Assembly: GCA_016931455.1 (NCBI GenBank)
Contig: JAFGES010000054.1
Coordinates: forward strand, 124,001 to 188,000
Length of the DNA: 64,000 bases
Direction of reading: 5' to 3'
Origin: Desulfobacterales bacterium
GTDB taxonomy: Bacteria; Desulfobacterota; Desulfobacteria; Desulfobacterales; JAHDSC01
Positions 36,551 to 60,504 of this stretch are shown in pieces. The notes under the pieces are model-generated. The model searched no databases and was not told where the DNA came from. It saw nothing but the letters and a program-made list of their open reading frames with translations. Within the stretch, counting starts at the first letter, position 1. The number at the start of each line of letters is the position of its first letter. The translations under genes and the position numbers were made by a program.

Positions 36551-37864
36551 ATGAATTTCGATATGGTAATTTATAACGGTACAATTATTACCGTTAATTC
36601 GGATTTTGACATCATCAAAGATGGATTTGTCGGCATAAAGAATGGAAAATTTGCACAAATCGGAAAATTTACTGATGATTTTACCGTCCCGACGGCAGAG
36701 GAGGTCATCGATGCAGAAGGGGGCATCATTATGCCCGGGCTGGTCAATACGCATACCCATCTTCCGATGACCCTATTCAGGGGACTTGCCGATGACCTTC
36801 CACTCTTTCAATGGCTGCACGAATATATTTTCCCAGCCGAACAAAAATATATCCAGGCTGAAACCGTTCGCTATGGAACTTTACTGGGATGCGTGGAAAT
36901 GATTTTAGGGGGCACGACGACCTGCTGTGACGGTTATTTTTTTGCAGATGAAATTGCTAAAGCAGTTTATGACTCCGGCATGCGGGCCATCCTTGGGCAA
37001 GGGGTCATTGACTTTCCGGCTCCGGGGGTACCGGATCCAAAAGAAAACATTCAAGTCGTCCTAAAATTTGCAGAAAAATGGCAAAATGTTTCGCCGCTCA
37101 TCGTTCCATCCATATTTTGCCATTCGCCTTATACCTGTAGTCGGCAAACATTGAAAAAAGCAAAAGATGCAGCAGACTCAAAAGCAATGCTCTTTCAGAT
37201 TCATGTTGCCGAAACAAAGAATGAATGGGATCGGATTTATTCCGAACATCAGACAACTCCCATAAAATATCTTGATCAAATTGGAATACTCGATCCCAAT
37301 ACGCTCTTGGTACATACGATTTGGGTTGATGATGAGGATATCGCCTTGATCGCACGGCGCGGGGCAAAGATTTCCGTGACGACTGAAAGTGAGATGAAAC
37401 TAGCATCGGGCATTGCACCGATTCCTGATTTTTTGCGCTGCGGCATATCCGTTGGGCTGGGAACCGATGGGTGTGCGAGTAACAATGACCTTGATCTTTT
37501 TCGCGAAATGGACTCTACGGCAAAACTTCACAAAGTAAATACGCTGAATCCAACGGTTCTGGATGCCCCGTCCGTACTGAAAATGGCTACCCTAGAGGGT
37601 GCAAAAGCCATTGGCCTGGAAAAAGATATCGGTTCTCTGGAGGTCGGCAAACAGGCGGATCTGATCATCATCGATACCGACAAACCGCATCTGGTGCCGA
37701 TGTATAATCCAGTCTCTCATGTTATTTATGCCGCTGTCGGTTCCGATGTGCGCGACGTTATGGTTGCCGGGAAAATGATTGTCAGAAATAAAAATTTGCT
37801 GACGTTGGATATACAAGAGATCCTTGCAAGAGTAACCCGGATAAGCAAGAATATAAGAATTTAG
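36551..37864 (+). CDS. mtaD: 5-methylthioadenosine/S-adenosylhomocysteine deaminase family amidohydrolase
   Basis: 437 residues. Metal-dependent amidohydrolase with the first metal site in PGLVNTHTHLPMTLFRGLADDLPLFQWL, His residues in FQIHVAETKNEW and LVHTIWVDDEDI, and the final Asp in VGLGTDGCASNNDLDLF. The LADDLPLxxWL block is typical of MTA/SAH deaminases (MtaD). It would convert methylthioadenosine to methylthioinosine. It is followed without a gap by adenine deaminase and then mtnA, a purine/methylthio salvage cluster. Confidence 0.88.
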   Translation: MNFDMVIYNGTIITVNSDFDIIKDGFVGIKNGKFAQIGKFTDDFTVPTAEEVIDAEGGIIMPGLVNTHTHLPMTLFRGLADDLPLFQWLHEYIFPAEQKYIQAETVRYGTLLGCVEMILGGTTTCCDGYFFADEIAKAVYDSGMRAILGQGVIDFPAPGVPDPKENIQVVLKFAEKWQNVSPLIVPSIFCHSPYTCSRQTLKKAKDAADSKAMLFQIHVAETKNEWDRIYSEHQTTPIKYLDQIGILDPNTLLVHTIWVDDEDIALIARRGAKISVTTESEMKLASGIAPIPDFLRCGISVGLGTDGCASNNDLDLFREMDSTAKLHKVNTLNPTVLDAPSVLKMATLEGAKAIGLEKDIGSLEVGKQADLIIIDTDKPHLVPMYNPVSHVIYAAVGSDVRDVMVAGKMIVRNKNLLTLDIQEILARVTRISKNIRI

Positions 37865-39580
37865 ATGATGAAACTTTCCAAAATGATAAAAGCCGCACGC
37901 GGTGAAACTCCAGTGGACCTGCTCTTAACCCATGCCCGAATAATTAATGTTTTTTCCGGTGAAATCATTTCCGACAATATTGCGGTGGCAAATGGATATA
38001 TTGTGGGATTGGGTTCCTATCGCGCCGAAAAAACGATTGATCTCAAGGGACGATTTGTGGCGCCGGGTTTTATCGATGCCCACGTCCATATTGAAAGTTC
38101 CATGGTTGGTGTTACCGAGTTTGTGCGTGCCGTTGTCGTCCATGGGACGACGACGGTTGTCGCCGATCCCCATGAAATAGCAAATGTCCTCGGCACTGAA
38201 GGCATCAATTATATGCTTCGATCCGCTATACGGCAGCCGATAAATATATACCTTACGTTTCCCTCTTGTGTTCCGGCTACAAATCTGGAAACTGCCGGTG
38301 CATCCCTGGACACTGACGACTTGTTGGCTTTTATCGATAAAGATCATATTATCGCTTTGGCTGAAATGATGAACTACCCGGGGGTTATTCATGGGGACTC
38401 TGAGGTCTTAACCAAAATAGAGCAAACCCGAATGCAACGAAAACGGGTTGACGGTCACGCGCCCGGTCTTTCCGGCCGAGATTTATCGGCTTATATAGCT
38501 GCCGGAATTTCAAGCGACCATGAGTGTACAACCGCGAAAGAAGCCATGGAAAAACTTCGCAATGGAATGTACATCATGATTCGGGAAGGTACCGGGGCAA
38601 GAAATCTTCAGGCACTTTTACCCATCATCAACCGGCAAACCGCTCGTCGAATCATGTGGTGTACGGATGACCGGCATCCGCATGATCTTCTTCAAAAAGG
38701 GCATATCGATTCCATTATCCATGAGGCCGTCGATGCCGGTATCGATCCGGTTACGGCCATTCAAATGGCAACAATAAATCCGGCGGAGTATTTCGGTATT
38801 CATGATATAGGCGCCGTGGCGCCGGGGCGAAGGGCGGATTTGGTCGTATTTTCCGATTTGAAAAATCTCAAGGTCGAACAAGTATTTTGTCGTGGGTTGA
38901 AGGTGGCTGAGAACCAAAATATTTTACCGCAGGTTGAAAAGCCGGTTCTCGTTAAAATTGAGCCGTCCATGAATGTTAAAGGCAATATGCTGGATTTTTT
39001 AATTCCTGCCGAAAAAGATTATATCCGAGTGATTGAGATTGTTTCAGGACAAATTCTAACCCGTCAGAAAGTCGTGAGAGCCTCTATATCAGAAAATTTT
39101 GCCGTTGCCGATCCTTCGCTTGATCTTCTAAAACTTGCAGTGGTTGAACGGCACAAAGGTTCGGGAAATATCGGGAAAGCCTTTGTGAAAGGGTTTGGAT
39201 TGCAGCAGGGAGCGCTGGCGTCCAGCGTTACGCACGACTCGCACAATATCATTGTTGTTGGAACCAATGATGCCGATATGAAGGTGGCGGTGGAAGCCGT
39301 CATAAAAATGAAAGGTGGTTTGGCGGCAGCGTGTCGACAAGAAATTCAGGCTCGCTTGCCACTTCCGATCGCCGGGTTGATGTCGGAAGATACGGTTGAA
39401 TCGGTGCGGGATCAGTTGGATAATCTTATCCGTGTTGCCCATAGTTTGGGAGTGATGTTAAAAGATCCTTTTATGACGCTTTCATTTTTAGCGCTTCCCG
39501 TAATTCCGGAATTAAAGCTAACTGATAAAGGGCTTGTGGATGTTAGCCGGTTTGAAATTGTTTCGCTATTTGTATCGTGA
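37865..39580 (+). CDS. ade: Adenine deaminase
   Basis: 571 residues. N-terminal amidohydrolase with APGFIDAHVHIESSMV (metal site), HGTTTVVADPHEIANVLG and CTDDRHPHDLLQKGHID; the C-terminal AdeC-specific domain has GGLAAACRQEIQARLPLPIAGLMS. It converts adenine to hypoxanthine. The start directly follows the mtaD stop (ATGATG; either ATG possible). In this cluster it could process adenine released from methylthioadenosine. Confidence 0.94.
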   Translation: MMKLSKMIKAARGETPVDLLLTHARIINVFSGEIISDNIAVANGYIVGLGSYRAEKTIDLKGRFVAPGFIDAHVHIESSMVGVTEFVRAVVVHGTTTVVADPHEIANVLGTEGINYMLRSAIRQPINIYLTFPSCVPATNLETAGASLDTDDLLAFIDKDHIIALAEMMNYPGVIHGDSEVLTKIEQTRMQRKRVDGHAPGLSGRDLSAYIAAGISSDHECTTAKEAMEKLRNGMYIMIREGTGARNLQALLPIINRQTARRIMWCTDDRHPHDLLQKGHIDSIIHEAVDAGIDPVTAIQMATINPAEYFGIHDIGAVAPGRRADLVVFSDLKNLKVEQVFCRGLKVAENQNILPQVEKPVLVKIEPSMNVKGNMLDFLIPAEKDYIRVIEIVSGQILTRQKVVRASISENFAVADPSLDLLKLAVVERHKGSGNIGKAFVKGFGLQQGALASSVTHDSHNIIVVGTNDADMKVAVEAVIKMKGGLAAACRQEIQARLPLPIAGLMSEDTVESVRDQLDNLIRVAHSLGVMLKDPFMTLSFLALPVIPELKLTDKGLVDVSRFEIVSLFVS

Positions 39581-39621
39581 TTCTTATCTTATGAAAAACA
39601 GTTCACCCAAAGGATTGCAAC

Positions 39622-40725
39622 ATGAAAGTTAACGGAAAGGATATGCGACCCATTTGGTTGGATGCCGATTTGAAGGTGGTTAAAATCATTGATCAAAGGT
39701 GTCTTCCGCATGAATTCAAGGTGGTGGACTTAAAAACAGTTCAAGACGTCATTGGGGCGATAAAAGAGATGACTGTCAGGGGCGCGCCGCTGATCGGGGT
39801 AACCGGCGCATATGGTGTCTATCTGGCAACTTTGAATTCTTTTGAAAAAACAAACGAAGATCAATATCTGATAAAATCATGCAGCCGATTGAAATCCGCC
39901 AGGCCCACTGCCGTGAATCTGTCTTGGGCAGTGGATCGAGTAATTAAAGCGGTAAGATCGGTAAAAAGTGTTTCCGAAAAAATTGAAACAGCCCGCAAAG
40001 AAGCGCAAAAAATCGAAGCCGAGGAAGTGCAAAACTGCGAAAAGATCGGTAAATACGGCGTAGAGCTGATTGCACGAATAAGTCGGTGCAAAAAAGGAAA
40101 AACAGTTAATATTCTTACGCATTGCAATGCAGGATGGCTTGCGTGTGTGGAATATGGAACGGCAACAGCCCCGATTTATGCGGCATTTGAAAAAGGCATC
40201 GATGTCCATGTTTGGGTGGATGAGACACGGCCGTTGAACCAGGGTGCAAGACTAACGGCTTGGGAACTGAACAATCATGGTGTCAAACATACGGTTATTA
40301 CCGATAATGCGGGAGGTCACCTGATGCAGCATAATATGGTGGATTTGGTAATCGTCGGTTCCGATCGCGCCACCTGCACCGGTGATGCGGCAAATAAAAT
40401 CGGAACCTATCTTAAAGCACTTGCCGCCAAAGACAACGGTGTTCCCTTTTATGTAGCGCTTCCATCCAGTACCTTTGATTGGCATCTTAAAAACGGTCTA
40501 AGGGATATTCCGATCGAAGAGCGTGATCCGGACGAAGTTCGATATGTGCAAGGCTGGAACGAGGGAGTGATCAAAAGTGTTTTAATTCCACCTGCAACTA
40601 GCCCGGCTGCAAATTTCGCATTTGATGTGACGCCCGCAAGACTTATTACGGGTTTTATCACCGAAAGGGGGATTTGCAGGGCAACGGCGGATGATATCAT
40701 TAAATTGTTTCCTGAGAAAGTTTAG
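39622..40725 (+). CDS. mtnA: S-methyl-5-thioribose-1-phosphate isomerase
   Basis: 367 residues, related to eIF2B alpha. MtnA motifs include MTVRGAPLIGVTGAYGVYLA, ILTHCNAGWLACVEYGTA, VWVDETRPLNQGARLTAWEL and VGSDRATCTGDAANKIGTY. It isomerises methylthioribose 1-phosphate to methylthioribulose 1-phosphate. No mtnB/C/D or mtnP is adjacent, so the later fate of the product is not visible. Confidence 0.93.
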   Translation: MKVNGKDMRPIWLDADLKVVKIIDQRCLPHEFKVVDLKTVQDVIGAIKEMTVRGAPLIGVTGAYGVYLATLNSFEKTNEDQYLIKSCSRLKSARPTAVNLSWAVDRVIKAVRSVKSVSEKIETARKEAQKIEAEEVQNCEKIGKYGVELIARISRCKKGKTVNILTHCNAGWLACVEYGTATAPIYAAFEKGIDVHVWVDETRPLNQGARLTAWELNNHGVKHTVITDNAGGHLMQHNMVDLVIVGSDRATCTGDAANKIGTYLKALAAKDNGVPFYVALPSSTFDWHLKNGLRDIPIEERDPDEVRYVQGWNEGVIKSVLIPPATSPAANFAFDVTPARLITGFITERGICRATADDIIKLFPEKV

Positions 40726-40910
40726 CTGTATCTGGGTTTGGCGAATCTCTATCGGTCGAGTGTTGGATTCTGCTTTATATTTTAATAATTTTGATGGGTT
40801 GTGAGCTTCCTTTATACAATTTATATGCTTGACAGGTTAAACTGAGGCAATTATAGTATTAAAGTAGATTAAAAAAAATTCCGTTATTCTTATCCCCCAA
40901 AAAGATAAAC

Positions 40911-41003: not shown

Positions 41004-41024
41004 TGAATGTTTAAGGAGAAGTCC

Positions 41025-42296
41025 GTGCAAAGACCCCTCCAACTGCTTCTTACCATTCTTTTTTTTGTCTGTGCGCTTGAAGCATGCAGCCTACCTGATC
41101 AAGAGGGAAATCCTCTGAAAAAAACACCCGGTGTAACAGACACCGAGGTATTTTTCGGCTCTTCGCTGGCGTTTAGCGGCCACGCGAGCTATCTAGGCAT
41201 TCAAACCCTGCGCGGGACGATGTCCTATATTAAACATATTAACGAAACCGGCGGGGTTCATGGCCGTACCATCAAAATCATTTTTTATGACGATAGTTAT
41301 GATCCTCCCAAATGTTTAGCCAATACTCAAAAATTGATTATTGAAGATAAGGTTTTTTCTCTCTGCTGTTATGTGGGCACGCCGACAACCGTTAAAATTT
41401 TGCCGCTGGTGGAAGAAGCCAAAATTCCGTTTCTGGGTATGTTTACCGGGGCAAATGCCCTTCGAGAGCCTTTTAACCGGTATCTGATCAATATACGGGC
41501 ATCTTACTATCAGGAAACAGGCGCGGCTGTAATGCACCTGGTAGAGGACTTGAATATTGAAAAGATTGCTATTTTATATCAGTATGATGCGTATGGCTTC
41601 GATGGACTCAGTGGTACCGAGCTGGGCCTTAAAAGATATAATTTGGTACCGGTTGCCGGCGGTTCCTATATTCGAGGAACCTTGGATGTTGAAGAAGGCT
41701 TGAACAAAATTATCAATTCCGGTGCTGAAGCCGTGGTTTTAATCGGAACTTATGAACCTTGTGCAAGATTTATTAAACTCGCCGGTGAAAGGGGATTTAC
41801 GCCCGTGTTTTATACCCCGTCTTTTGCAGGCGCTGAGGAACTGGCCCGCCGGCTGGATTCCTTCAATAACATTATTTTAATTATGTCCCAGGTCGTACCC
41901 CCGCCGGAAGGACCTGAATCCGAAGCTCTTCTGGGGGGTGCAGTGGAATATATCCAATTACTGAAACAATATTATCCTGAAGATACACCTAATTTTGTTG
42001 GGCTGGAGAGCTATGTCAACGCTAAGGTTTTGGTCGAGGGTTTGAAATCGGCCGGCAGGGATCTCACGCGTGAAAATTTTATCGATGCAATTGAATCGAT
42101 AAGAGATTTCTCATTAGGGCCCGACATTACAATCTCCTTTAGCCCTACCGATCATCAGGGAATGGATCGAGTGTATTTTACCCAATTGAAAAATGGTCGC
42201 TTTACTCTAATTGATGATTGGACAGCGATCAAAAAGGCTTTTATCGATCGAAACGAAGGGCGAAAAAAAACTACACAAAGTGATAGATCTCTGTGA
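41025..42296 (+). CDS. LivK-type ABC substrate-binding lipoprotein without a transporter
   Basis: 423 residues from GTG 41025, which has AAGGAG seven bases upstream (ATG 41007 lacks one). The signal ends in a lipobox-like LEAC, so it is a probable lipoprotein. The rest is a type I periplasmic binding protein (VTDTEVFFGSSLAFSGHASYLG, then GGVHGRTIKIIFYDDSYDPPKC and FLGMFTGANALREP), as in Leu/Ile/Val or amide receptors. No permease or ATPase is nearby; it overlaps a sensor kinase gene by GTGA. It probably presents a ligand to that kinase. Confidence 0.85.
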   Translation: MQRPLQLLLTILFFVCALEACSLPDQEGNPLKKTPGVTDTEVFFGSSLAFSGHASYLGIQTLRGTMSYIKHINETGGVHGRTIKIIFYDDSYDPPKCLANTQKLIIEDKVFSLCCYVGTPTTVKILPLVEEAKIPFLGMFTGANALREPFNRYLINIRASYYQETGAAVMHLVEDLNIEKIAILYQYDAYGFDGLSGTELGLKRYNLVPVAGGSYIRGTLDVEEGLNKIINSGAEAVVLIGTYEPCARFIKLAGERGFTPVFYTPSFAGAEELARRLDSFNNIILIMSQVVPPPEGPESEALLGGAVEYIQLLKQYYPEDTPNFVGLESYVNAKVLVEGLKSAGRDLTRENFIDAIESIRDFSLGPDITISFSPTDHQGMDRVYFTQLKNGRFTLIDDWTAIKKAFIDRNEGRKKTTQSDRSL

Positions 42297-44248
42297 AACG
42301 ACTCGCGGATATCAGCCTGAAAAATAAAATTTTTCTTTCCATAATGGCGGTGATTCTTGTCATTAGTCTATTTATCGCTTTTGTAACCCGATGGATGCTT
42401 ATCAGCACATTTAGTACCGAATTGGAACTCAGAGGCACTGCTTTGGCGCGCAGTATTGCCGGCAGTGTCAGCGGATATATACTGGATAAAGACTATCCAA
42501 AATTGCTGAGCTTCATCTTTGATGAAGCTCAGCTTAAAGAGCGCAAGCATTTGGTGGCCTATATTTTTGTCGTTGACCCCGCGGATAAGGTTCTCAGTCA
42601 TACCTTTACACGTCCTTTTCCGGATGCGCTTGAGCGTTCAAATCCCATTTTGCCGGGCAAAAATAAAAGTATACGGCTGATCACGCTTGACGATCAAACG
42701 GTTTACGATATCGCCATTGCCATTAATGAAGGGATTTATAGAATCGGCACGGTGCATGTCGGGCTGAACAAGAATCATATTGATTCTCTGATAAAGAAGC
42801 TTCGCATTACCTTTGCGGGTTTTCTTTCATTGATTCTGGTGCTTATCTTTTTTGTAAGCCATAGGCTTGCTAAGTACATCACGATGCCAATGTCCCGGCT
42901 GGTAAGAATCATCAATGAATTGGGGCAAGGTAATTTCGACATGGATTTGGATTCTATCCATCTTAAAAATAGCGATAAGTCCCTGAATTTGACAGGTAAG
43001 GAAAAACCGGAGCATCCGATGCCGGCTTTTGACGAATTGAGCAGCCTGGGAGAAGCGCCGGTACTTAAGCGGCGTGGTGACGAGGTTATTCAACTGGCCG
43101 ATTCTTTTAACTATTTGTTTTGGAAAATAAAACCGTTTCCAACACAATTGCGTGAAATGGAAGAAAAATACCGCTCGCTGTTTGACAGCGGTCCTGAGCC
43201 GATTTTTGTGGTCGATCGTGGTTCCTATGAAATTTTGGATGCCAACCCTAAAGCAATGAATCTTTACGGCTACTCAAGAGAAGAACTCATCGGTATGTCA
43301 TTTCTAAGGCTCGGGGCCGGAGATAATCTAACCAAGGAATGTATGGCCTATTTTTCCGACGAAAACAAGTCGATGGAGTGTGTGTTTTATCCCAAAATGC
43401 TTCATTATAAGAAGGAAGGTCAGCCGGTATATGTGAATGTTCACGCTTGTCCGATTGCATACAAGGGGCAGCCCTCTATTATTGTAGAAGTTATGGATGT
43501 TACCAATATCGTTGAAAAGGATGCTCAACTCATTCAGGCCGGCAAAATGAAATCCCTTGGGGAGATGTCTGCCGGTATCGCACATGAACTTAATCAACCA
43601 CTTAATACGATCAAGCTCGGTAGTGAATTTCTATCCATGATGATCGAAGAAAATCGAAGCTTGCCTAAGGAACAGATCGCCCAGGTCGTCAAAGAAATCA
43701 GTACTCAAGTCGATCGAGCGGCCGGTATTATCGATACGTTGCGGTCCTTTGGCCGAAAATCGGGGCTTATTAAAGAAAAGGTAGACATCAATAAGCCGAT
43801 ACGCGGTGTGTTTACCACCGTGGGGGGTCAGTTTGAACTTGAAAACATCAAAATAAATTTGGAACTTTCGGAAGGCATATCTTCTATCCTGGCCCATGAG
43901 AATCAACTTTTGCAAGTTTTTCTCAACCTGGCTACAAATGCCCGGGATGCCATTTTGGAAAAGAACAAGGCTCAAGGTACTACGGCGGGAGGTGTGATTA
44001 CCATTCGTTCCTATCAGGAAGATCAACGGGTTTTGGTGGAGGTGCAGGACAATGGTACCGGCATACCGGAGGACGTTCGCGAAAAGATTTTCCACCCTTT
44101 TTTTACGACTAAGGAGGCCGGTGCGGGTATGGGACTGGGTCTAGCCATTGCATATGGTATCGTAAAAGACTTTGGAGGCGATATTCAGATAAAAAGTAAG
44201 GAGGGGGCAGGAACGACATTTAAATTGATATTTCCTGTGGCTTCTTAA
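42293..44248 (+). CDS. Membrane sensor histidine kinase with HAMP, PAS, HisKA, HATPase
   Basis: 651 residues from GTG 42293. Membrane helix at about 11-31, a periplasmic domain of about 140 residues, a second helix near 175-195 (LRITFAGFLSLILVLIFFV), then a HAMP-like region with an insertion, a PAS domain (YRSLFDSGPEPIFVVDRGSYEILDANP), HisKA with His431 (GIAHELNQPLNTIKLGSEF) and an ATPase with NLATNARDAI, DNGTGIP and GAGMGLGLAIAYGIV. The kinase core resembles the DctB/NtrB type. It is translationally coupled to the binding protein and followed by a response regulator. Confidence 0.9.
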   Translation: MKRLADISLKNKIFLSIMAVILVISLFIAFVTRWMLISTFSTELELRGTALARSIAGSVSGYILDKDYPKLLSFIFDEAQLKERKHLVAYIFVVDPADKVLSHTFTRPFPDALERSNPILPGKNKSIRLITLDDQTVYDIAIAINEGIYRIGTVHVGLNKNHIDSLIKKLRITFAGFLSLILVLIFFVSHRLAKYITMPMSRLVRIINELGQGNFDMDLDSIHLKNSDKSLNLTGKEKPEHPMPAFDELSSLGEAPVLKRRGDEVIQLADSFNYLFWKIKPFPTQLREMEEKYRSLFDSGPEPIFVVDRGSYEILDANPKAMNLYGYSREELIGMSFLRLGAGDNLTKECMAYFSDENKSMECVFYPKMLHYKKEGQPVYVNVHACPIAYKGQPSIIVEVMDVTNIVEKDAQLIQAGKMKSLGEMSAGIAHELNQPLNTIKLGSEFLSMMIEENRSLPKEQIAQVVKEISTQVDRAAGIIDTLRSFGRKSGLIKEKVDINKPIRGVFTTVGGQFELENIKINLELSEGISSILAHENQLLQVFLNLATNARDAILEKNKAQGTTAGGVITIRSYQEDQRVLVEVQDNGTGIPEDVREKIFHPFFTTKEAGAGMGLGLAIAYGIVKDFGGDIQIKSKEGAGTTFKLIFPVAS

Positions 44249-44266
44249 AATAGTGAGGAAAAGCGG

Positions 44267-44965
44267 ATGAATAAAATACTTGTTATTGACGATGAGAAAC
44301 CGACTTTAACGATGTTTCGGTTTTTATTAAGTGCCTATGGCTATTCGGTATTTACAGCTGAAAATGGAGAAGAAGGGTTGAAAATACTTGAACGTGAGAA
44401 GTGCCCCCTGGTTCTGACCGATATCAAAATGCCGGGCATGGATGGAATAGAGGTTTTAAAGCGCATCAAGGAAATGGACCCTCGCATCGAAGTTATTGTC
44501 GTTACCGGTCATGGGGACATGGATCTGGCCATCAATGCGTTGAATCTAGACGCTACCGATTTTATAAATAAACCTGTCCAACGTGAGGCTCTTGAGCAGG
44601 CTTTGAAAAGAGCTGAAAAAAGAATACAGCTTGCTGAAAACCAAGAAAAACAAGTCTGGGTTCGGTCGAAAGACAATTATGCGGTTATTGAAATTCGTGG
44701 TAGGATTTCTTCTCACTCCGAATCTTACTTGCAAAAAGCTTATAAAGATGCACTGGCCATGGAAAAAGAGAAGATTTTTTTGAGATTTGATGAAAATGCT
44801 TCCATCAATGGGGCCGGTATTGCCGTTTTGACCCAAATCCTTCTGGAAGGCCGGGAACAAGGGCGAAAAATATTCATCGCCGGGCTTTCGAAAAATTTCA
44901 GGAAAGTCTTTGAAATTGTTGGAATTTCCAAGCTTGTAGAAGTTTTGGATACAATTGATGAGTAA
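44267..44965 (+). CDS. Response regulator with receiver plus STAS output domain
   Basis: 232 residues. The receiver has acidic residues 8-9, phospho-acceptor Asp52 (LTDIKMPGMDG), TGHGD and the Lys in NKPV. From about residue 130 a STAS domain follows (NYAVIEIRGRISSHSESYL, INGAGIAVLTQILLEGREQGRKIFIAG), as in anti-sigma antagonists. At the usual phospho-Ser position it has Asn (SINGAG), so it is probably not serine-phosphorylated. No DNA-binding domain: output should be by protein interaction. It lies 18 bases after the kinase. Confidence 0.85.
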   Translation: MNKILVIDDEKPTLTMFRFLLSAYGYSVFTAENGEEGLKILEREKCPLVLTDIKMPGMDGIEVLKRIKEMDPRIEVIVVTGHGDMDLAINALNLDATDFINKPVQREALEQALKRAEKRIQLAENQEKQVWVRSKDNYAVIEIRGRISSHSESYLQKAYKDALAMEKEKIFLRFDENASINGAGIAVLTQILLEGREQGRKIFIAGLSKNFRKVFEIVGISKLVEVLDTIDE

Positions 44966-44974
44966 GTGAGAACC

Positions 44975-45538
44975 ATGAATAAAAAAATGATTTGGAACGT
45001 AATTATTATTTTATCGATCGGTTTTTTAGCAATGAATTGCTATTGCGAAAAAGTATTTTCAGCGGATTTACCCCAAAAGGGAACCGTGCTGCCCTCGATT
45101 CAATTTATAGCCCCTCCCTTGAAAGAGCATTTGAAATATCTTGGCGTGAAAGATGAAAAGTTTGAGCTGAAGGATATCCACTATAAAGTATTGCTGATAG
45201 AGGTTATCGGTGTTTATTGCCCGTATTGCGTGGAGCAGGTGCCGTTGTTTACAAAACTTTTCAATCGTCTCCAAAAAAATAAATTGGATCATAAAGTCAA
45301 AATGCTTGGAGTTACCGCTGGCGGGGCGCCTATGGAAGTTAAATTTTTGCAGGAAAACGGTGGCTACAAATTTCCATTGGTCCCGGATGAATCGTTTGCT
45401 ATTCATAAACTCCTGGGTGAACCGCGCACGCCGTTTACCATGCTCGTAAACAAAAGAGGCGAGGTCCTCTATACGCATCTTGGAATCGTCAAAGATATAA
45501 ATTCTCTCTATAAATTAATACAGACATTGTCAGAATAA
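44975..45538 (+). CDS. Exported TlpA/AhpC-like thiol-disulfide redoxin
   Basis: 187 residues from ATG 44975 (GTG 44966 also in frame). An N-terminal hydrophobic segment (MIWNVIIILSIGFLAMNCYC) ends near VFSAD and should export or anchor the protein. The thioredoxin fold carries CPYC in EVIGVYCPYCVEQVPLF, and a cis-Pro region in PRTPFTMLVNKRGEVLYTHLG. It probably acts on periplasmic thiols. It is the fourth gene of the seven-gene operon, nine bases after the REC-STAS gene. Confidence 0.8.
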   Translation: MNKKMIWNVIIILSIGFLAMNCYCEKVFSADLPQKGTVLPSIQFIAPPLKEHLKYLGVKDEKFELKDIHYKVLLIEVIGVYCPYCVEQVPLFTKLFNRLQKNKLDHKVKMLGVTAGGAPMEVKFLQENGGYKFPLVPDESFAIHKLLGEPRTPFTMLVNKRGEVLYTHLGIVKDINSLYKLIQTLSE

Positions 45539-45553
45539 AATGGAGACGGGGAT

Positions 45554-46705
45554 TTGACGGATCAGTTGAATAACAACCCACAGGCCTTAAAGACCCGGGA
45601 TGAACTGGATAAGCGGATTTTTCATCTTCAGGCGATTTATGATTTAACAGCGGAACTTAGCCCTCTCACCGATACGCAGAAGCTGCTGGATACATTTCTG
45701 CTGATGATTTTAGGCACCTTCAGCGTCGGACAAGGATTTGTCCTGGTCTATGACCGCAGGGAAAAGATTGTCGCCCTATCTGATCGTGGTCTAGAGCATA
45801 AAGCTACATTAAGCCCGGAATTTACAGAAAAACTGCTATACCAATGTCTTGATGTCTCAGCAGAGAAAACCTTGGCGCCTATGAGTGTCACAAATCTTAC
45901 CGCACCGGATCTTTTCAAGACGGCCGGCTTGAGTCCTGCAACGGAATATGGCCTTATGTTTGTCGTTGATTCGCAACTCATGGGAATTATCGGACTGGGT
46001 CCGAGAATTTCAGATACTGATTTTTCCAAAGTCGAAAAAACGCTTTTGGTCAATTATGTGTCCAATTTTATGGTTTTTTTAAAAAACGCTAGATCTTTTG
46101 AAATGATTCAGGCCCTGAACAAAGACCTTGAGCAGCAAAATGAACAACTCAGAAAAACGATTGCAGAATTGACCGAGGCGAGGCATAAAATTACCACTTT
46201 AGAAAAGGCCAAGGCTCAAATCAAGATGATCGTTCAAGCAGAGCTGGAACGAGCCGGACGTGTGAGAATCTTGGATTTTGTTTTGATCCTTGCCGTGGCG
46301 ATGCTTGTGGGTTTGGTTTTCAATTTTTTCAGTCCCAATGGTATTCCGTTGGTTTCTGAATCGATATTTCGACCATCGCCGGCTTTGATCGATGTCGCAG
46401 AAGCAAAAAAAATTATAGATACCGGTACAGGCGTTTTGGTGGATGCCCGACCTAACGAGTTTTATAGGCAAGAGCATATCAAGGGTGCTATTAATTTGCC
46501 GCCGGCACTTTTTGATTTCATATATATGATGAAGTTAAGTAAACTGGACCCAAAAAAGAAAATTATCGTTTACGGGCGAAATATCAGCAAACGCTACGAT
46601 GAAGAGGTGGCCTACCGTCTCACACAGCGTGACCACGAAGACATCAAAGTGCTTGCCGGTGGTCTTTCAGCCTGGAGTAAAGAGGGGTACCCGCTGGAAC
46701 CATGA
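45554..46705 (+). CDS. GAF domain-coiled coil-membrane helix-rhodanese fusion, rhodanese Cys missing
   Basis: 383 residues from a TTG at 45554 preceded by GGAGACGGGG. Order: GAF-like sensor (about 20-180), coiled coil (MIQALNKDLEQQNEQLRKTI), one membrane helix near 238-258 (LDFVLILAVAMLVGLVFNFF), then a rhodanese domain (275-383: VDARPNEFYRQEHIKGAINLP, LAGGLSAWSKEGYPLEP). The active-site loop begins VYGRNISKR, with Gly where the sulfur-carrying Cys should be, so it is probably non-catalytic. It looks like a cytoplasmic sensor joined to a periplasmic binding module. Confidence 0.75.
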   Translation: MTDQLNNNPQALKTRDELDKRIFHLQAIYDLTAELSPLTDTQKLLDTFLLMILGTFSVGQGFVLVYDRREKIVALSDRGLEHKATLSPEFTEKLLYQCLDVSAEKTLAPMSVTNLTAPDLFKTAGLSPATEYGLMFVVDSQLMGIIGLGPRISDTDFSKVEKTLLVNYVSNFMVFLKNARSFEMIQALNKDLEQQNEQLRKTIAELTEARHKITTLEKAKAQIKMIVQAELERAGRVRILDFVLILAVAMLVGLVFNFFSPNGIPLVSESIFRPSPALIDVAEAKKIIDTGTGVLVDARPNEFYRQEHIKGAINLPPALFDFIYMMKLSKLDPKKKIIVYGRNISKRYDEEVAYRLTQRDHEDIKVLAGGLSAWSKEGYPLEP

Positions 46706-47181
46706 AATTTTGGGAATTCGCTAAAAAGATTCCAACGAGCAAGTATCTTGCATTAATCTTAAGAATTTATATTGGCTGGATCTTTATTTACGCCAGTATG
46801 TACAAGATTAATTATGCCGGGGAGTTCGCCGAAAGCATTGCTAGTTATCAACTTGTTCCTTTTTGGGCGGTCAACATTATGGCTGTTTTTCTGCCTTGGA
46901 CGGAACTTATTTGCGGGCTTCTGCTGATAGCCGGGATTCGATCAAAAGCGGCCGCTCTTCTCATTGCAAGTATGTTGGTTGTATTTATTATTGCCATTGG
47001 AATCAATCTTATTCGTGGTACTCCAATCGGTTGCGGCTGTTTCAGCAGCGTAGAGGAACCGTTGAACTGGGTTACCTTGTTCCGTGATATCATCTGGTTG
47101 GCTATGACGATTCATGTTTACATTTATGATACGGCTTTTCATTTAGAAAAAAAATTTTTTATGAAGATCAGGGATCTTTAG
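46702..47181 (+). CDS. MauE/DoxX-like redox-associated membrane protein
   Basis: 159 residues with four membrane segments. The DoxX/MauE pattern is clear: LRIYIGWIFIYASMYKI, ESIASYQLVPFWAVNIMAVFLPWTELICGLLLIAGI, then a Cys pair in IGCGCFS and a final helix. MauE relatives support disulfide chemistry or quinone-linked redox in the membrane. It overlaps the rhodanese fusion by ATGA and precedes a lipoprotein by two bases. Confidence 0.82.
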   Translation: MKFWEFAKKIPTSKYLALILRIYIGWIFIYASMYKINYAGEFAESIASYQLVPFWAVNIMAVFLPWTELICGLLLIAGIRSKAAALLIASMLVVFIIAIGINLIRGTPIGCGCFSSVEEPLNWVTLFRDIIWLAMTIHVYIYDTAFHLEKKFFMKIRDL

Positions 47182-47183
47182 TT

Positions 47184-47516
47184 ATGAAATATTTCCGTAT
47201 TTTTTTATTGAGTTCGATTATTACCTTTCTCATTATTGTTTCCTGTCAACCCGGCCGAAATATTGCCGGAAAATACCAGGAAGAAAACCCTTTAGATCAA
47301 GATGTACTTGTGGTGCTTTCACTCACATCCGATGGTAAGGGGTCATGGAGTGTAGATGATGAAACCGTCTCCTTTAAATGGAAAGTCCATGATGACGAAA
47401 TTTGGCTGCATACCCCTTCCGGTGGAGTGATTGTAGGTAAACTTTTGCAAACCGATTCCATTATTGTTACCTTACCGGGAATAAAAAAAATTTTTCTTAA
47501 GAAGATTCGACAATAA
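47184..47516 (+). CDS. Small putative lipoprotein of unknown function
   Basis: 110 residues. A hydrophobic signal with a lipobox-like IIVSC ends near residue 21. The mature part (GKYQEENPLDQDVLVVLSLTSDGKGSWSVDDETVSFKW) resembles small beta-barrel, lipocalin-like domains that contain a Gly/Trp-rich strand. I do not recognise a specific family. It is the last gene of the operon, two bases after the MauE-like gene. Confidence 0.65.
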   Translation: MKYFRIFLLSSIITFLIIVSCQPGRNIAGKYQEENPLDQDVLVVLSLTSDGKGSWSVDDETVSFKWKVHDDEIWLHTPSGGVIVGKLLQTDSIIVTLPGIKKIFLKKIRQ

Positions 47517-51076: not shown

Positions 51077-51961
51077 TCAGGCCTGCAAATCAAGTGGTAA
51101 AGCACTTTTAAGTCCCATTTCTTCGGCCTTTATATCAAAGTGCAATGTTGCGACCTGTTCCAGGGGTGGGTAAATAATACGGTCTAATTTTCTGGTATCC
51201 ACTGTTTTGATATATTTTTTACAGCTTTCACAAACATCAACCCGATATTCCGGTTCCGCTTCGCTGTAAAAATAGTTTAGGGTCTTGGTGTCTTTGTTGT
51301 CACAAAAGGGACAGTACAACCTTCGGGTCGACCATTTGTGACGGCAGAAGCTGCAGATGAAAAACCGCTCGCCTTCACCTTCAAATATCGAAAGTCCCGG
51401 CAGACTTCCGCAAACCGGGCAGTAACCCTTTTCCCATTTATGATTTGGATCCAGATAGGTTGAAAGCTGTTGAGAGCATAAATTTACCGATGGGTTTATG
51501 CTGTTATATGTAATAAAAGCCAAAGCCTTTTTGTCAATTTCAAATTCAGATGCAATTTTTTCAAAAAATCCTTCATCACCACCCAGAAGGCTTTTAAAAA
51601 CAGAGTCAAGATCGATTTTTTCATTGGTGACGGCTTTGATAAGAATTCCGGCAGACACGGCTAAAATACCGTCCGACTGTTGCGAGATATTACATATTTT
51701 TTGAAAAAGCCGGCCTGCAGCTTGGCTGTCGATTGTAAAGTCCGATAGGTTAATCAAGGGGAAATTATCTTTTACTTTAACAGCGATCATTTCGGCGGTT
51801 ATCTTTATTGGATTTATATGTAATTGCCTTTTCGAATCTTCCTGCATGACAAAGATTTTTTCATAAAAATCTATTAATTCTTTGTAAACGGGTCTCAAAC
51901 CCTTTAGTGTTGCAGCTGCCTTTTTGATCTGATCAGAGGTGAAGTCCATATTCACTGCCAT
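51077..51961 (-). CDS. fdhE: Formate dehydrogenase accessory protein FdhE
   Basis: 294 residues. The C-terminal half holds the rubredoxin-like CxxC pairs: GYCPVCGS, FICSFCRHKWS, LYCPFCDN and DVCESCKKY. FdhE is needed to activate or assemble periplasmic formate dehydrogenase before export. The ATG at 51961 follows AAAGGGA. It lies downstream of fdhAB on the same strand, separated by a strong hairpin and a repeat, so it may have its own promoter. Confidence 0.9.
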   Translation of the reverse strand: MAVNMDFTSDQIKKAAATLKGLRPVYKELIDFYEKIFVMQEDSKRQLHINPIKITAEMIAVKVKDNFPLINLSDFTIDSQAAGRLFQKICNISQQSDGILAVSAGILIKAVTNEKIDLDSVFKSLLGGDEGFFEKIASEFEIDKKALAFITYNSINPSVNLCSQQLSTYLDPNHKWEKGYCPVCGSLPGLSIFEGEGERFFICSFCRHKWSTRRLYCPFCDNKDTKTLNYFYSEAEPEYRVDVCESCKKYIKTVDTRKLDRIIYPPLEQVATLHFDIKAEEMGLKSALPLDLQA

Positions 51962-52101: not shown

Positions 52102-52821
52102 TTAAAATAGGTGAGAAGCTATGTTTTTCAGAGGACGAAAAATTTTCCGCAGGGCTACCTGCCGTGTCATATCAAAAGCGGCATTTGAAGCAATGGCGAA
52201 CTCATGATACAGTGTCGGCTCATAAGCAACCAAATAAATCACCCTGACGTCATTCGGATCAATGAGTTCAGCTTTTGGATATTTAGCTTTAACTTCTAAT
52301 AGACGTTTTTGGGCAAGATCCAGCATTTCTTCTCGTTTGCCGAAATTCATAGCACCTGTCGGACAGGTCTGCACACAGGCCGGAAGCAGTCCATTGTGAA
52401 CGCGGTCGTTGCACATATCGCATTTCGCCATGGTTCCATCCGAACTCTTGCGGGGAATATTATACGGACATGCTTCTCGGATTTCCTCAAAATTCAGATA
52501 CTTCGTGTTAGCCGTATAAATTACGGCACCGGTTTTAGCATCCGTATATATAGCGTTTTCATCGCCCGCAATATCTTGGCAAGGTGGCTCGATACAATGA
52601 CGACACTGTTCCGGGAAAAAGAGCCAGTTCAGTTTGCCGTCGATGACATTTTCACGCATTCTGACAACCTTATACGTGTTAAAGGAGACATCCGGCGGAT
52701 TTTCGTATGTGCCGCGATTTTGGGTGATCTCCGCCGGGAGGTCATGCCACTGCTTGCAGGCCACCTGACATGCTCTGCACGCCGTGCACAATGTCGTATC
52801 TATGAAAAATGAGTTACTCAT
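52102..52821 (-). CDS. fdhB: Formate dehydrogenase iron-sulfur subunit (FdhB)
   Basis: 239 residues from ATG 52821, eight bases after GGAGGAGG; an in-frame GTG three codons earlier overlaps that site. Cysteine groups: CTACRACQVACKQW, CRHCIEPPC, then CDMCNDRV and ACVQTCPTGAMNFG. The second group lacks a following CP pair, as in the three-cluster Desulfovibrio FdhB. It passes electrons from the catalytic subunit to a periplasmic acceptor. There is no C-terminal membrane helix, so the enzyme should be soluble or peripheral. It follows fdhA by 15 bases. Confidence 0.93.
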   Translation of the reverse strand: MSNSFFIDTTLCTACRACQVACKQWHDLPAEITQNRGTYENPPDVSFNTYKVVRMRENVIDGKLNWLFFPEQCRHCIEPPCQDIAGDENAIYTDAKTGAVIYTANTKYLNFEEIREACPYNIPRKSSDGTMAKCDMCNDRVHNGLLPACVQTCPTGAMNFGKREEMLDLAQKRLLEVKAKYPKAELIDPNDVRVIYLVAYEPTLYHEFAIASNAAFDMTRQVALRKIFRPLKNIASHLF

Positions 52822-52836
52822 ATAGATCACCTCCTC

Positions 52837-55800
52837 CTAAAGTTTTGTAATGTTGACCATAAAGGCCTTGGTTTCAGGGATACGGGTGTTGGGATCTCCG
52901 GTGGGCGGTGTCAACAAGTTAATGCTGTCCTCAGTTCCTTTCTCAGGCCAGCGCCATCCAAAATGCCACGGAACACCCACCTCATGGACAATGGTACCGC
53001 CGATTTTAAAAGGTTTAAAGCGCTGGGTAACAATTGCGGTACATTCCAAGGTGCCACGAGCCGACGATACCATGACGCGTTCACCGTTTTTGATTCCTCT
53101 GAGCTTGGATAATTCCTCACTCATTTCCACAAATACTTGCGGCTGGAGTTCAAGGAGCCACGGTTGCGGACGGGTCATCAGACCGGTCTGCCAATGTTCA
53201 GTCACTCGGTAAGTTGAGCAGACATACGGAAATCTCGGATCACAGGTTCCTTCCGTCGTCAAATCCGCTTCCGTCAAGTAAACCGGAGCAACCGGGCTTA
53301 TCTTTTGTTTTGGATTCATGTAATTTGTTTCAACCGGGCATTCAAGCGGTTCGTAATGCTCCGGAAAAGGTCCGTCAGTGAGGCCCGGCCCAAAAATTTG
53401 ACCATATCCGTGCTTGCGCATAATAAAGGGATACTTACTCTTGGGGTTTAATGTTCCATCTAGATTCTGTAACGGCGGCCAACCTCCATCGGGTACATCT
53501 CCGATCCATTTATTACCTGTCCAGCGAATGACCCAATCCTGGGTATCATAAGGTTGACCTTTTGGATCGACGGAAGCACGGTTGTAAATGATTCGGCGAT
53601 TCAACGGCCAACACCAGGCAAAATCAGGGTATAAACCGATCTTGTTGGGAGCATCTTCCAAGCCTTTGCGGGCCGCCATATTCCCTTTTTCCGTATAGCT
53701 GTTACAATAAAGCCAGTTTGCGGATGAGGTCGAACCGTCAGCTTGCAGTTTGGTAAAATTCGGCACAAGGGTTCCTTTTTTGTACAGGACGCCTTGGATC
53801 TCGACATCTTCATGAAAATAACCGTTAATTTCCTTGGCCACTTTATGAGAATCGAAATGACCATGGGTTTCATAGTCCCACTTAAGGTTGAGAATAGGTT
53901 CCGGAAGTGCACCTTGTTTTTTGTAAAGCTCTTTAATTTTATGACCCAACTGCATGATAATATGACCGTCGGACAGACTATTGCCAAGCGGTTTCGGCCC
54001 CTGATATCGCCACTGCATCCATCGTCCGCTGTTGGTGATACTGCCTTCTTTTTCAACCGATACGCAACAGGGGAGCATGAAGACTTCCGTTTTTATGGTG
54101 GAGGGATTCATGCCCGGCCCGCGCCAGAACGATCCGGTCTCGTTATCAAAAATATTGACATTAACCATCCAGTCCAGTTTGGCCATGGCTTTTCGATTCT
54201 TATTGGCATTGGAACCACTGCAGGCCGGGTTTTGGCCCCAGGCCATGAAACCTTTGAAAGTGCCCTTGTACATTTCATCGAAAAGGGTTAACCATGAATA
54301 ATCCTTTCCGTCATCGACTTTCGGCATCCACTGATATCCGAATTCGTTTTCTTTGGTTGCCTTATCGCCAAAGTACGATTTTAAAAGGCTGACCATATAC
54401 TTGGGCGTATTTTGCCACCAGTTGGCGCTCATAGGATCCTTGCTGGCAGGCGTCCATCGTTTGAGGTAGGCATCCAATGTATCGTCCGATGATCTGGGCG
54501 TCTTCAGATAGCCGGGCCAAATGTGCCAAAGGAGGCAATGGTCCGTGGAGCCCTGTACGTTTGATTCTCCGCGCAACGCATTAATACCGCCGCCGGCGAC
54601 TCCCATATTTCCCAGCAGTAGTTGAATGATAGCCATGGTACGGATATTTTGAACGCCGACCGTATGTTGAGTCCAGCCCATGGCGTACATCGACGTACCC
54701 GCCTTGCCCTTGGCCCCGGTGGCGGCATAGGTTTTGTATACTGTAAGCAAATCCTGTTCCGGTGTACCCGTAATTTTGGATACTAGTTTGGTATTATAAC
54801 GGCTGTAATGTTTCTTTAAAAGTTGGAACACGCATCGGGAATTTGATAAATTGCGATCCATTTTGGGAACCCCATTATTGTCCAACTCAAACGCCCATTT
54901 GCTTTTGTCGTATCCTCCAGCCGTCACTGATGCGGGGGGATTTTTACGATAGCCTGAAAAAAGGCCGTTTTTAAAACTATAATCCTTCCCCACGATAAAC
55001 GGAGCATTGGTATAGTTTTTTACATATTCTTCATTATAGAGTTTTTTATCGAGGATGTAATTGATCATGCCGCCCAGAAAAGCAATATCCGTCCCGGAAC
55101 GTAAAGGAGCGTAAATATCAGCCTTGGCCGATGTCTGAGTAAATCTGGGATCAACACTAATGAGTTTGGCGCCTCGTTTTTGAGCTTCCGTTACATATTT
55201 GAAAGAAATGGGATGATTGCTGGCGGCGTTGCTGCCCATAATTAAGATACAGTCACTATTTCTAATGTCGATCCAATGGTTTGTCATTGCACCGCGTCCG
55301 AACGACTCTGCCAGAGCCGCTACAGTTGCGCTATGTCAGATACGAGCCTGATGTTCGATATATACCAACCCCAGCGCACGCATGAGTGCCTGGTAGATCC
55401 AGCACTCTTCATTATCCATGGCGGCGCTGCCGACTGAAGCAATTCCCATGGCCCGATTAACAATTTGTTTTTTCTCATTTTTATGCTGAAAGCTAGAATC
55501 CCTGGTTTCTTGAATTCTTTTTGCAATTTCACTTAGAGCCCATTCCCAAGAAACCGGTTTCCATTCTTTGGCATATGGAGCACGGTACATTGGATCGAGC
55601 AAGCGATTGGAATTCTCTGTTAACTGAGAAAGCGCGGCACCCTTGGGACAAAGCGATCCCTTATTAATTATATGGTCCGGGTCCCCTTCGATGTTAATGA
55701 CGCGACCATCACCTTTTTGGCTCGTGTGCACGATAGCCCCGCAACCCACCGCACAATAACAGCAGATTGTGCTGGTTTCTTTGGCATACTTGGTCTTAAG

Positions 55801-55911
55801 CATCTGAGCATGAGACTTAACCGGCGAGAGACCGATTCCCAAACCGCTCACTGCAAGACCGGCGGCCGTTGCCCCCGTGATTTGGATAAATTCTCTTCTT
55901 GTTACATTCAT
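52837..55911 (-). CDS. fdhA: Formate dehydrogenase catalytic subunit, selenoprotein (read through UGA at 55336-55338)
   Basis: 1024 residues if the in-frame TGA (complement 55336-55338, residue 192) is read as selenocysteine. The flanks match the active site of FdnG-type enzymes: HQARI-Sec-HSATVAALAESFGRGAMTNHW. A Tat signal (TRREFIQITG) leads to the periplasm. The [4Fe-4S] ligands are C50, C53, C57 (CCYCAVGC) and the Cys in GSLCPKG. It binds a bis-MGD Mo or W cofactor and oxidises formate to CO2. The ATG follows AGGAGG. The two frames must be joined as one gene; a stem-loop just after the UGA supports this. Confidence 0.95.
55301..55321 (-). promoter_or_regulatory. SECIS-like stem-loop downstream of the fdhA UGA
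   Basis: On the minus strand, starting 14 bases after the UGA codon, AGCGGCTC pairs with GAGTCGTT (with two G-U pairs) around a five-base loop TGGCA. Bacterial SECIS elements sit immediately 3' of the UGA and carry a GG in the apical loop, as seen here. It is a few bases farther away than in E. coli fdhF. Confidence 0.6.
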
Positions 55912-56602
55912 AAGCTTTACCTCCTAGTTTAAGGGTTACCTGCGATAAAATTAATAAATGAGTGCAGATACATAAAACTGAATTTGCTGTTAATGGTACA
56001 TAAAAATACGGTCGGCAATAACTATAGAAATTCTAGGACAGTTAGAATCATTTTCAAAAATATATCGGCGATAGCGCTCGGCAGCGTTAGTTGAAGGTTC
56101 AGCGGCCAACCGTTAATAAGAATTCAGTTTGAATAGAGGTTTGAATGGGTAAGAAATCTTTATAAAGTATCGGCCTTTTTACCAACCTTTATCCGGGGTT
56201 GCGGCTGCACCGCAATTAAAGTTAATGAAGTAAAAAATCAGTCTTAATTTTTAATGACATTCTTTGCTTACTTTGTCTATAGGTATAAGGCATTATTTTT
56301 ATGAGAAAAAATCCTATCTAATAGGGGTTTATCCCGATAAATGGAGTGAAATTAAAAGTAGCCGATAATAGTTGATCATCGATTGAATCATTAGGAAAGG
56401 ATTAATGGACGAGAAAATACTCTAAAAATTAGAATTTAAACCAAAATAAGTGCAGGGATAAATAAAAAACCGAATTAAGTTTTTTTCTTCAATTATTAAA
56501 AAAATACTTGAAATCGGATGTGCATGATGGTAGTTCCACATTTTGATTTTTGTTCTAGGGCCCACTTTTTTTTGACTAAAGTTTGAAAGGAATGTGTGTA
56601 AA
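55912..56602. other. Long divergent intergenic region between fdhA and the cytochrome gene
   Basis: About 690 AT-rich bases with no credible gene or RNA. It must hold the promoters of fdhAB (minus) and of the cytochrome (plus). The only tidy structure is a small hairpin, TTGCGG (56199-56204) with CCGCAA (56210-56215). I cannot identify sigma-factor or regulator sites with confidence. Confidence 0.5.
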
Positions 56603-56983
56603 ATGACTTCAAAAAAAGAACTGCAGGTGGCATACGGCCTGGCAATTATTTTTTTAGTTGTCGGCATCTTAAGTTATGCGGCCTTTCCTGCAAAAGCCCC
56701 TGATCAGCCGGTAAGGCTGATGTTCGAGGGAGTTGCAGGAAATGTTTTGTTTGACCACAAAACGCATACTGTAGATTCGGGTTATGGGATAGCATGTCAA
56801 GATTGCCATCATAACCTCGAAGCGGGTGAAACGAATCCGGAATCTTGTGGAGCATGTCATGAAATTGAGAGTGGCGATGAAGATGTTCCCAAACGTTCGG
56901 ATGCATTTCACTTACAGTGTATCGGCTGTCATAAAGAAGGTGATGCCGGCCCTCAAGAATGTTCGGGATGTCATGTCATGTAA
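56603..56983 (+). CDS. Tetraheme cytochrome c3/c7-like protein with N-terminal anchor
   Basis: 126 residues from ATG 56603 (GTG 56594 in frame). An uncleaved-looking membrane helix (LAIIFLVVGILSYAAF) is followed by four CxxCH heme sites: CQDCH, CGACH, CIGCH and CSGCH, with distal histidines in FDHKTH and FHLQC. Class III periplasmic cytochromes take electrons from formate dehydrogenase or hydrogenase. It lies between fdhA (divergent) and rnfC, so it could serve either; a terminator separates it from rnfC. Confidence 0.9.
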   Translation: MTSKKELQVAYGLAIIFLVVGILSYAAFPAKAPDQPVRLMFEGVAGNVLFDHKTHTVDSGYGIACQDCHHNLEAGETNPESCGACHEIESGDEDVPKRSDAFHLQCIGCHKEGDAGPQECSGCHVM

Positions 56984-57014
56984 GCCAGTAGCCTAAATGC
57001 TACCGGCTTTTTTT
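56983..57014 (+). terminator. Rho-independent terminator after the cytochrome gene
   Basis: AGCCAGTAGC (56983-56992) pairs with GCTACCGGCT (56999-57008), with one mismatch and a six-base loop, followed by a run of seven Ts. It ends the cytochrome transcript, or attenuates it, 42 bases before rnfC. Confidence 0.85.
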
Positions 57015-57055
57015 GTGACCTTTCACGTTAATGCGGCAAACAAAAAGGTTGAACT

Positions 57056-58348: not shown

Positions 58349-59300
58349 TCAGAAAAAATTTATAGTGTCACATGCTCCATTCTGGCTTGACGGGAGCAGG
58401 ATATCCATTCGAAGCTATAATTTAATGATAGCAGCGCTGCCGGCATTATTGTTCGGTATCGCTCAGTATGGTATGCCCGCAATCGGTGTTATAACATTAG
58501 CGATTTCTTCCGCCATTATATGGGAATATCTTTGGGATGTTATAACCAAACAAGCCGTTACCATCGGAGATGGAAATGCTGCAGTTATAGGTCTATTGTT
58601 TGGTATGCTTTTACCGGCGACGGCTCCATGGTGGTTTGTTATCATTGGAACCTTTATCGCAGTTATAATAGGAAAACAGATTTATGGCGGAATCGGGGCT
58701 AATGCTTTTAACCCGGTGCTTGTAGCAATTGCAATCCTCATGCTGTCCTGGAAATATGTATTCAATTTTGATGGAATGCTATTGAATTATGATTTCAACT
58801 TTCTTGCAGTCTATCCGCTTGCGGCCCTGAAACATTTCGGTGTTTCCGGTATTGAGTCTTTTAATATGGGTGATCTTCTAATGGGCCAACAGATCGGCGG
58901 CATCGGAACCGGGTTTGGGCTGGGTCTCATAATCGGCGGTGCTTATCTGATTATTCGCGGCTACATTCGTTGGGAGATTTCAGCATCTTTTATAGTCGGT
59001 ATGTTTATTACCGCCATGTTATTTAATCTTTCAGATTCAGCACGTTTTGCAGGTCCGTTGGTCCATCTTTTTACCGGATACACGTTGATAGGCATTTTTT
59101 TCCTGGCAACGGAGGATTCATCATCGCCGGTTAATTTTATTCCGATGCTTATTTATGGAGCCGGTGCAGGAGTGCTGACCGTATTGATCAGAAATATCGG
59201 TGTCTATGTGGATGGGGTAGTTTTTGCAATACTGGCTATGAATCTTGTAAGTCCGCTTCTGGACATGATCAGGCCTAAAGCTATTGGAAAGGTTGTTTAA
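58341..59300 (+). CDS. rnfD: Rnf complex subunit RnfD
   Basis: 319 residues from ATG 58341, behind GGAGG and overlapping the rnfC stop. Multiple membrane helices, with the start FIVSHAPFWLDGSRISIRSYNLMIAALPALLFG and the GNAAVIGLLFGMLLPATAPWW segment typical of RnfD/NqrB. The family carries a covalent FMN on a Thr. It is part of the ion-translocating membrane core. Confidence 0.93.
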   Translation: MSNQKKFIVSHAPFWLDGSRISIRSYNLMIAALPALLFGIAQYGMPAIGVITLAISSAIIWEYLWDVITKQAVTIGDGNAAVIGLLFGMLLPATAPWWFVIIGTFIAVIIGKQIYGGIGANAFNPVLVAIAILMLSWKYVFNFDGMLLNYDFNFLAVYPLAALKHFGVSGIESFNMGDLLMGQQIGGIGTGFGLGLIIGGAYLIIRGYIRWEISASFIVGMFITAMLFNLSDSARFAGPLVHLFTGYTLIGIFFLATEDSSSPVNFIPMLIYGAGAGVLTVLIRNIGVYVDGVVFAILAMNLVSPLLDMIRPKAIGKVV

Positions 59301-59301
59301 A

Positions 59302-59895: not shown

Positions 59896-59904
59896 GAGAT
59901 AAAG

Positions 59905-60495: not shown

Positions 60496-60504
60496 GAGAA
60501 AAAG

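Follow-up and report, generated by a model that had tools for sequence, protein, structure and literature searches.

Organization and conservation of the seven-gene operon

The window analysed here is a stretch of 64,000 nucleotides from a Desulfobacterales bacterium, and seven ORFs on its + strand (41007-47516) form a putative operon (Table 1). The first three encode a binding protein (SBP), a sensor kinase (HK) and a REC-STAS regulator; the last four encode a redoxin, a GAF-rhodanese protein, a MauE-type protein and a small lipoprotein. The SBP ORF was taken from 41007, and position 41025 is an alternative GTG start. The dense packing noticed in a previous sequence-only reading, with gaps of 18 bp or fewer or 4-bp overlaps, was borne out by the ORF coordinates (gaps of 0-18 bp), and the operon is bounded by gaps of 281 bp (upstream) and 228 bp. 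The upstream gap contains the best sigma-70-like match of the 64-kb stretch (11/12); since the total of such matches is at the chance level given by shuffling, this site is only consistent with the operon. A search of plasmid DNA gave a sole match of 69 bp, inside the kinase region. Genes for an SAH/MTA deaminase-type amidohydrolase, an adenine deaminase and an IF-2B-family (MtnA-like) protein lie upstream of the operon (36551-40725), and are apparently involved in purine and methionine salvage.

Table 1. Features of the operon and of the neighbouring formate dehydrogenase genes in the window.
Feature	Position	Strand	Remarks
Promoter-like site TTGACA-17-TATAGT	40829-40857	+	Consensus match only; gap upstream of operon
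SBP	41007-42296	+	Exported lipoprotein-type Peripla_BP_6 binding protein; no transporter adjoining
HK	42293-44248	+	sCache-PAS-HisKA-HATPase sensor kinase (Pfam); 4-bp overlap with SBP
REC-STAS regulator	44267-44965	+	Pfam REC and STAS; 18-bp gap after HK
Redoxin, TlpA/ResA-like	44966-45538	+	Exported, CxxC; Pfam Redoxin; 0-bp gap after REC-STAS
GAF-long helix-one TM-rhodanese-like protein (P0005)	45554-46705	+	Pfam Rhodanese; 15-bp gap after redoxin
MauE/DoxX-like membrane protein with CGC	46702-47181	+	Pfam; 4-bp overlap with GAF-rhodanese
Small lipoprotein	47184-47516	+	Lipocalin-like at most (sub-threshold Pfam match); 2-bp gap after MauE
FdhE-like FDH accessory protein	51077-51961	-	Linked locus, outside operon
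FdnH-like Fe-S subunit of FDH	52102-52830	-	CxxC-type ferredoxin sequence; syntenic with FdnG in relatives
FdnG-like FDH alpha subunit	52837-55911	-	One ORF through a single in-frame TGA

The GAF-rhodanese protein was searched for in 96 relatives, of which nearly all belong to this order, and five long relatives were found in other families. Three of these loci (L032, L033 and L036) keep the order SBP-HK-REC/STAS-redoxin-GAF/rhodanese unchanged; L035 has the last part of the operon behind REC-STAS only, and L034 begins at a contig edge. The REC-STAS gene thus lies upstream in four of the five full-length relatives, the fifth being the one at the contig edge. A scan of genome contigs with the SBP gave 80 loci. 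The kinase follows the SBP in 74 of the 76 loci with enough sequence, and REC-STAS follows the pair in 62/66; whereas the GAF-rhodanese gene was found downstream in 29 of the 58 loci having at least 6.5 kb of downstream sequence. The same order in other families and in about half of these 58 loci indicates that the arrangement is not due to chance, and the proportions show that SBP-HK-REC/STAS is the core unit and the thiol half a frequent addition. REC-STAS is upstream in 31/31 GAF-rhodanese loci of this set, which was anchored on the SBP and hence is no independent test.

The sequence-only reading had proposed that the two halves form a joint unit, and had suggested neighbourhood conservation in Desulfobacterota as a check, with occurrence of the halves in unrelated neighbourhoods as the contrary outcome. 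The same order was indeed found in many members, and the joint unit is supported by both searches. The thiol half was not found in unrelated neighbourhoods, whereas the sensor half stands alone in about half of the loci.

Properties of the sensor and thiol halves

The SBP orthologues of the 80 loci are 54-70% identical. The SBP model has a LIVBP fold, and its best Foldseek match is 4kv7 (TMt 0.91), the nearest solved SBP; this structure came from a planctomycete, which suggests that the family extends beyond a role with formate dehydrogenase (FDH). The protein had been described as a LivK-like binding lipoprotein without a transporter, and this description holds: it is a Peripla_BP_6 protein by Pfam, no HAAT permease or ATPase adjoins its gene in the operon, and five other loci of the genome carry LivH/M-type permeases. 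A co-directional SBP-HK gene pair with no transporter adjacent is the arrangement of a binding-protein-dependent sensor. Moreover, the phospho-acceptor His431 of the kinase is invariant (78/78 aligned sequences), as is Asp52 of the receiver domain (68/68), so that signal transfer via Asp phosphorylation would be possible. The previous suggestion of a binding-protein-plus-kinase system is supported.

A SpoIIAA-type partner-switch antagonist with a phosphorylatable Ser was also considered for the STAS domain, and was not supported: in an alignment made by eye, the position of the SpoIIAA phospho-Ser is Gly in 53/67 sequences, including the window protein, and Ser in 3/67. A BTAD/MalT-like activator was considered as a STAS partner; no homologue was found in the window's genome, which is weak evidence.

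The thiol half is marked by invariant cysteines, namely the CxxC of the redoxin (38/38 sequences) and the CGCF of the MauE protein (37/37), which make thiol chemistry possible. A CxxC redoxin beside a MauE-family protein with conserved cysteines resembles the MauD/MauE pair and its thiol chemistry. Relatives of the small lipoprotein are present in many loci. In the AlphaFold model of P0005, a GAF-like N-terminal domain is joined through a 75-residue helix and one TM-like helix to a rhodanese fold. The GAF part had no Pfam match, and was assigned from the secondary structure of the model, one weak Foldseek match to the sensor kinase 6oap, and the similarity of the N-terminal part to that of cyclase proteins. 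The membrane orientation of the rhodanese domain and of the MauE cysteines is a prediction made by reading the sequences by eye. Sulfur transfer by the rhodanese domain was rejected, since the catalytic Cys is replaced by Gly in all 36 sequences and a rhodanese lacking this residue is not expected to be a sulfurtransferase. Of the membrane thiol/sulfur module proposed for the last four genes, the thiol part was thus retained and the sulfur transfer was not.

Related domains were also observed elsewhere. A short TM-rhodanese gene paired with a MauE gene occurs in the window's genome and in three relatives (L045-L048), and short rhodanese matches of this kind were found in most of the 96 relatives. 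The active-site Cys is present in two or three of the four copies examined, and absent from the copy in the window's own genome. L039 (8688-9980) and L041 (8045-10924) contain a module in which HATPase and STAS genes are accompanied by a small Crp-like ORF and by a cyclase gene; the N-terminal part of this cyclase resembles that of the GAF-rhodanese protein.

Linkage to a periplasmic selenocysteine formate dehydrogenase

FDH is a selenium-containing enzyme interconverting formate and CO2. In the window, the FDH genes lie 3.6 kb downstream of the operon on the opposite strand, with four other genes between. The commonest non-operon neighbours of the SBP are two FDH subunits (27/47 and 25/47 loci), and FdhE-like genes are also frequent; antisense artefacts given by the same neighbour clustering were set aside. 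Among the fully covered SBP loci, 22/36 have an FDH gene within 10 kb and 14/36 do not. The SBP tree shows at least 8 changes in the place and direction of FDH with respect to the SBP, which indicates that the physical linkage has been kept despite rearrangement. In the phylum sample, FDH lies within 20 kb of the SBP in at least 11 of 33 SBP genomes, where a rough Poisson estimate predicts about 0.65. FDH is present in 25/33 SBP genomes versus 157/296 of the sample (Fisher p ~0.006; counts taken by hand from two tables), and the 8/33 SBP genomes without FDH are among those with weaker SBP matches. All 20 further genomes reached via SBP loci have an FDH (19 close matches and one at 43% identity), in most cases outside the flanks of their SBP locus; in Desulfosarcina widdelii the distance is about 12 kb. 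The SBP-kinase pair thus travels with a periplasmic selenocysteine FDH (FdnG/FdnH/FdhE) across the phylum. This context was overlooked in the sequence-only reading, and gives the operon a probable role.

More distant loci differ in the regulator. At L129, L131 and L143, the SBP and its kinase are accompanied by an NtrC-type sigma-54 activator, divergent from FDH. L130 is arranged alike, its regulator having been detected by tblastn only. At L132 the regulator is of the NarL/LuxR type and lies in the FDH direction. These domains were assigned by Pfam for L129 and L132, and by reading the sequence for the others. In L129, L131, L143 and L132 the related SBP is 35-40% identical, a DNA-binding regulator replaces REC-STAS beside the same FDH, and the thiol half is absent. 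In Desulfobacula-type loci, a BTAD/TPR protein follows REC-STAS, and FDH is convergent in several of them. A simple pattern search for sigma-54 promoters upstream of FDH gave two weak matches only, at L131 and L143. These exchangeable regulators are the best evidence that the SBP-kinase pair controls FDH; since the regulator of the distant pairs near FDH is a DNA-binding one and not REC-STAS, control of FDH was probably the ancestral role.

Some loci showed other features. At L133 (8647-10971, - strand), two SBP domains are fused in one ORF beside a receiver-domain protein and a kinase, and FDH was not among the matches listed for this genome (G129). At L060 (8110-9054, - strand), an IS1595-type transposase-like ORF lies between FDH and the SBP; its cluster has members in 16/47 loci. 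A transposase would not usually recur in this way, and the ORF could perhaps be a domesticated gene. In the window, a class III cytochrome c gene and then an Rnf-like cluster (56594-63293) adjoin the FDH genes.

The window FdnG resembles the D. vulgaris FdhAB in its Sec192, encoded by the TGA at residue 192, and aligns with both cysteines of the FdhAB disulfide switch (Cys845 and Cys872). Reduction of this disulfide, for example by DTT, activates FdhAB, and the oxidised state protects the enzyme from O2; the passages on this activation name no physiological or in vivo reductant (PMC13397495, PMC11323313), and the operon is a candidate only. In a set of 137 FDH sequences, 33/92 of those with the Cys pair have a TlpA-like gene within 8 kb, versus 1/45 of those lacking it; this signal comes mostly from the SBP-anchored loci. 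The proportions in the FDH-anchored subset are 8/63 and 1/37 (p=0.15, not significant), and phylogenetically independent pairs gave about 5:0 (p ~0.06). TlpA-like genes are thus nearly confined to the surroundings of FDHs that have the Cys pair; after phylogenetic correction the association is only suggestive. At L060, FdnH is followed on its own strand by genes for a TlpA-like protein and a member of the peroxiredoxin family. The window's genome has a comparable pair, a TlpA paralogue with an AhpC/TSA (peroxiredoxin-family) gene, away from FDH (L249, 8616-9827, - strand). The FDH is the probable client of the thiol half.

Proposed role, alternatives and known parallels

We propose that the operon serves the periplasmic selenocysteine FDH in two ways, by regulation and by care of its thiols, and give this reading a probability of roughly 0.55. 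The ligand of the lipid-anchored SBP would be a small molecule in the periplasm; formate, or something else that signals its turnover, is plausible. The SBP might then dock on the sCache domain of HK, which in turn would phosphorylate REC-STAS. This regulator has no DNA-binding domain and could act by contact with a partner protein. The redoxin and the MauE protein may form a MauD/MauE-like periplasmic thiol-disulfide pair through their CxxC and CGC motifs, and the GAF-TM-rhodanese protein might be a non-catalytic transmembrane adaptor coupling the cytoplasmic state to this pair. The most likely thiol client would be the FDH alpha subunit, via its conserved Cys pair. The operon would thus sense the need for FDH and help to hold it in the active, reduced state, if thiols and electrons flow in the presumed direction. 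A complete circuit, from a formate-sensing SBP through the kinase and the regulator with its non-phosphorylatable STAS domain to the cytoplasmic GAF end of the pseudo-rhodanese, whose periplasmic end would gate a MauE/TlpA relay and so open or close the FDH disulfide, is improbable as a whole.

The two halves may also have separate tasks. The two-component half would regulate FDH; whereas the thiol half would serve another periplasmic client, such as the maturation of c-type cytochromes or a general repair of disulfides, and be co-transcribed for convenience. We consider this alternative less likely. The redoxin is ResA/TlpA-like, a family known in cytochrome maturation; a cytochrome c3 gene is found close to the FDH of the window, and the sensor half is found without the thiol half in about half of the loci. 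The short TM-rhodanese and MauE pair (L045-L048), which in the relatives examined lies apart from FDH, also indicates that MauE modules have other uses. However, the thiol half occurs near FDH without the sensor half at L037, TlpA-like genes directly follow FdnH in other loci, and, before correction, such genes were almost restricted to the surroundings of FDHs with switch cysteines.

It is doubtful that the operon is a periplasmic sensor of redox state or sulfur compounds working through a stress-type STAS partner switch, with FDH nearby because both belong to a shared energy-metabolism island. The rhodanese-like and redoxin domains, the L041 module in which a STAS protein related to the REC-STAS one accompanies a HATPase, a small ORF and a GAF-like cyclase, and the position of the window FDH beside cytochrome c3 and Rnf-like genes would agree with this explanation; whereas the FDH linkage survives at least 8 rearrangements and extends to distant lineages with other regulators, FDH subunits are the top neighbours, and the rhodanese Cys is gone. 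The redox-signalling system suggested by the sequence-only reading is possible but unproven. It is very unlikely that the SBP simply binds amino acids for a distant LivHM permease and that the kinase beside it is unrelated, as its LIVBP fold and the five LivH/M-type permease loci might suggest, since no permease or ATPase is encoded in the operon, the SBP gene is followed by the kinase gene almost without exception, and the position that holds the ammonium group in LIVBP appears to be an invariant Ser in this family.

Each part of the proposed unit has known parallels, including SBP-dependent kinases, AmiC-type sensing and MauD/MauE thiol pairs. AmiC/AmiR, TorT/TorS and LuxP/LuxQ are binding-protein sensors without a transporter, which likewise use a periplasmic-binding-protein fold as the sensor beside signalling proteins; the operon differs in its combination of an exported Peripla_BP_6 lipoprotein, an sCache-PAS kinase and REC-STAS. 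MauD/MauE function in the maturation of methylamine dehydrogenase; whereas the operon has no such enzyme, has a transmembrane pseudo-rhodanese between the two proteins, and is linked to FDH. The two-component system RsfSR of Mycobacterium smegmatis reports the respiratory state into a STAS partner switch; its regulator is a REC-PP2C protein acting on a separate STAS protein, whereas REC and STAS are fused in the operon and PP2C is absent (PMC10950880). A literature search that covered few subscription papers found no description of the operon system or of a thiol partner of FDH. The combination of genes, the regular link to the selenocysteine FDH with exchangeable regulators, and the pseudo-rhodanese adaptor were likewise not found described in that search, which is not proof of novelty.

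In sulfate reducers and syntrophs, the operon is a candidate for the sensing of formate or of the demand for FDH. It is also a candidate physiological partner for the disulfide switch that governs the activity and oxygen protection of a widely studied CO2 reductase. If the complete circuit outlined above is true, the activity of FDH, beyond the expression of its genes, would follow a periplasmic signal.
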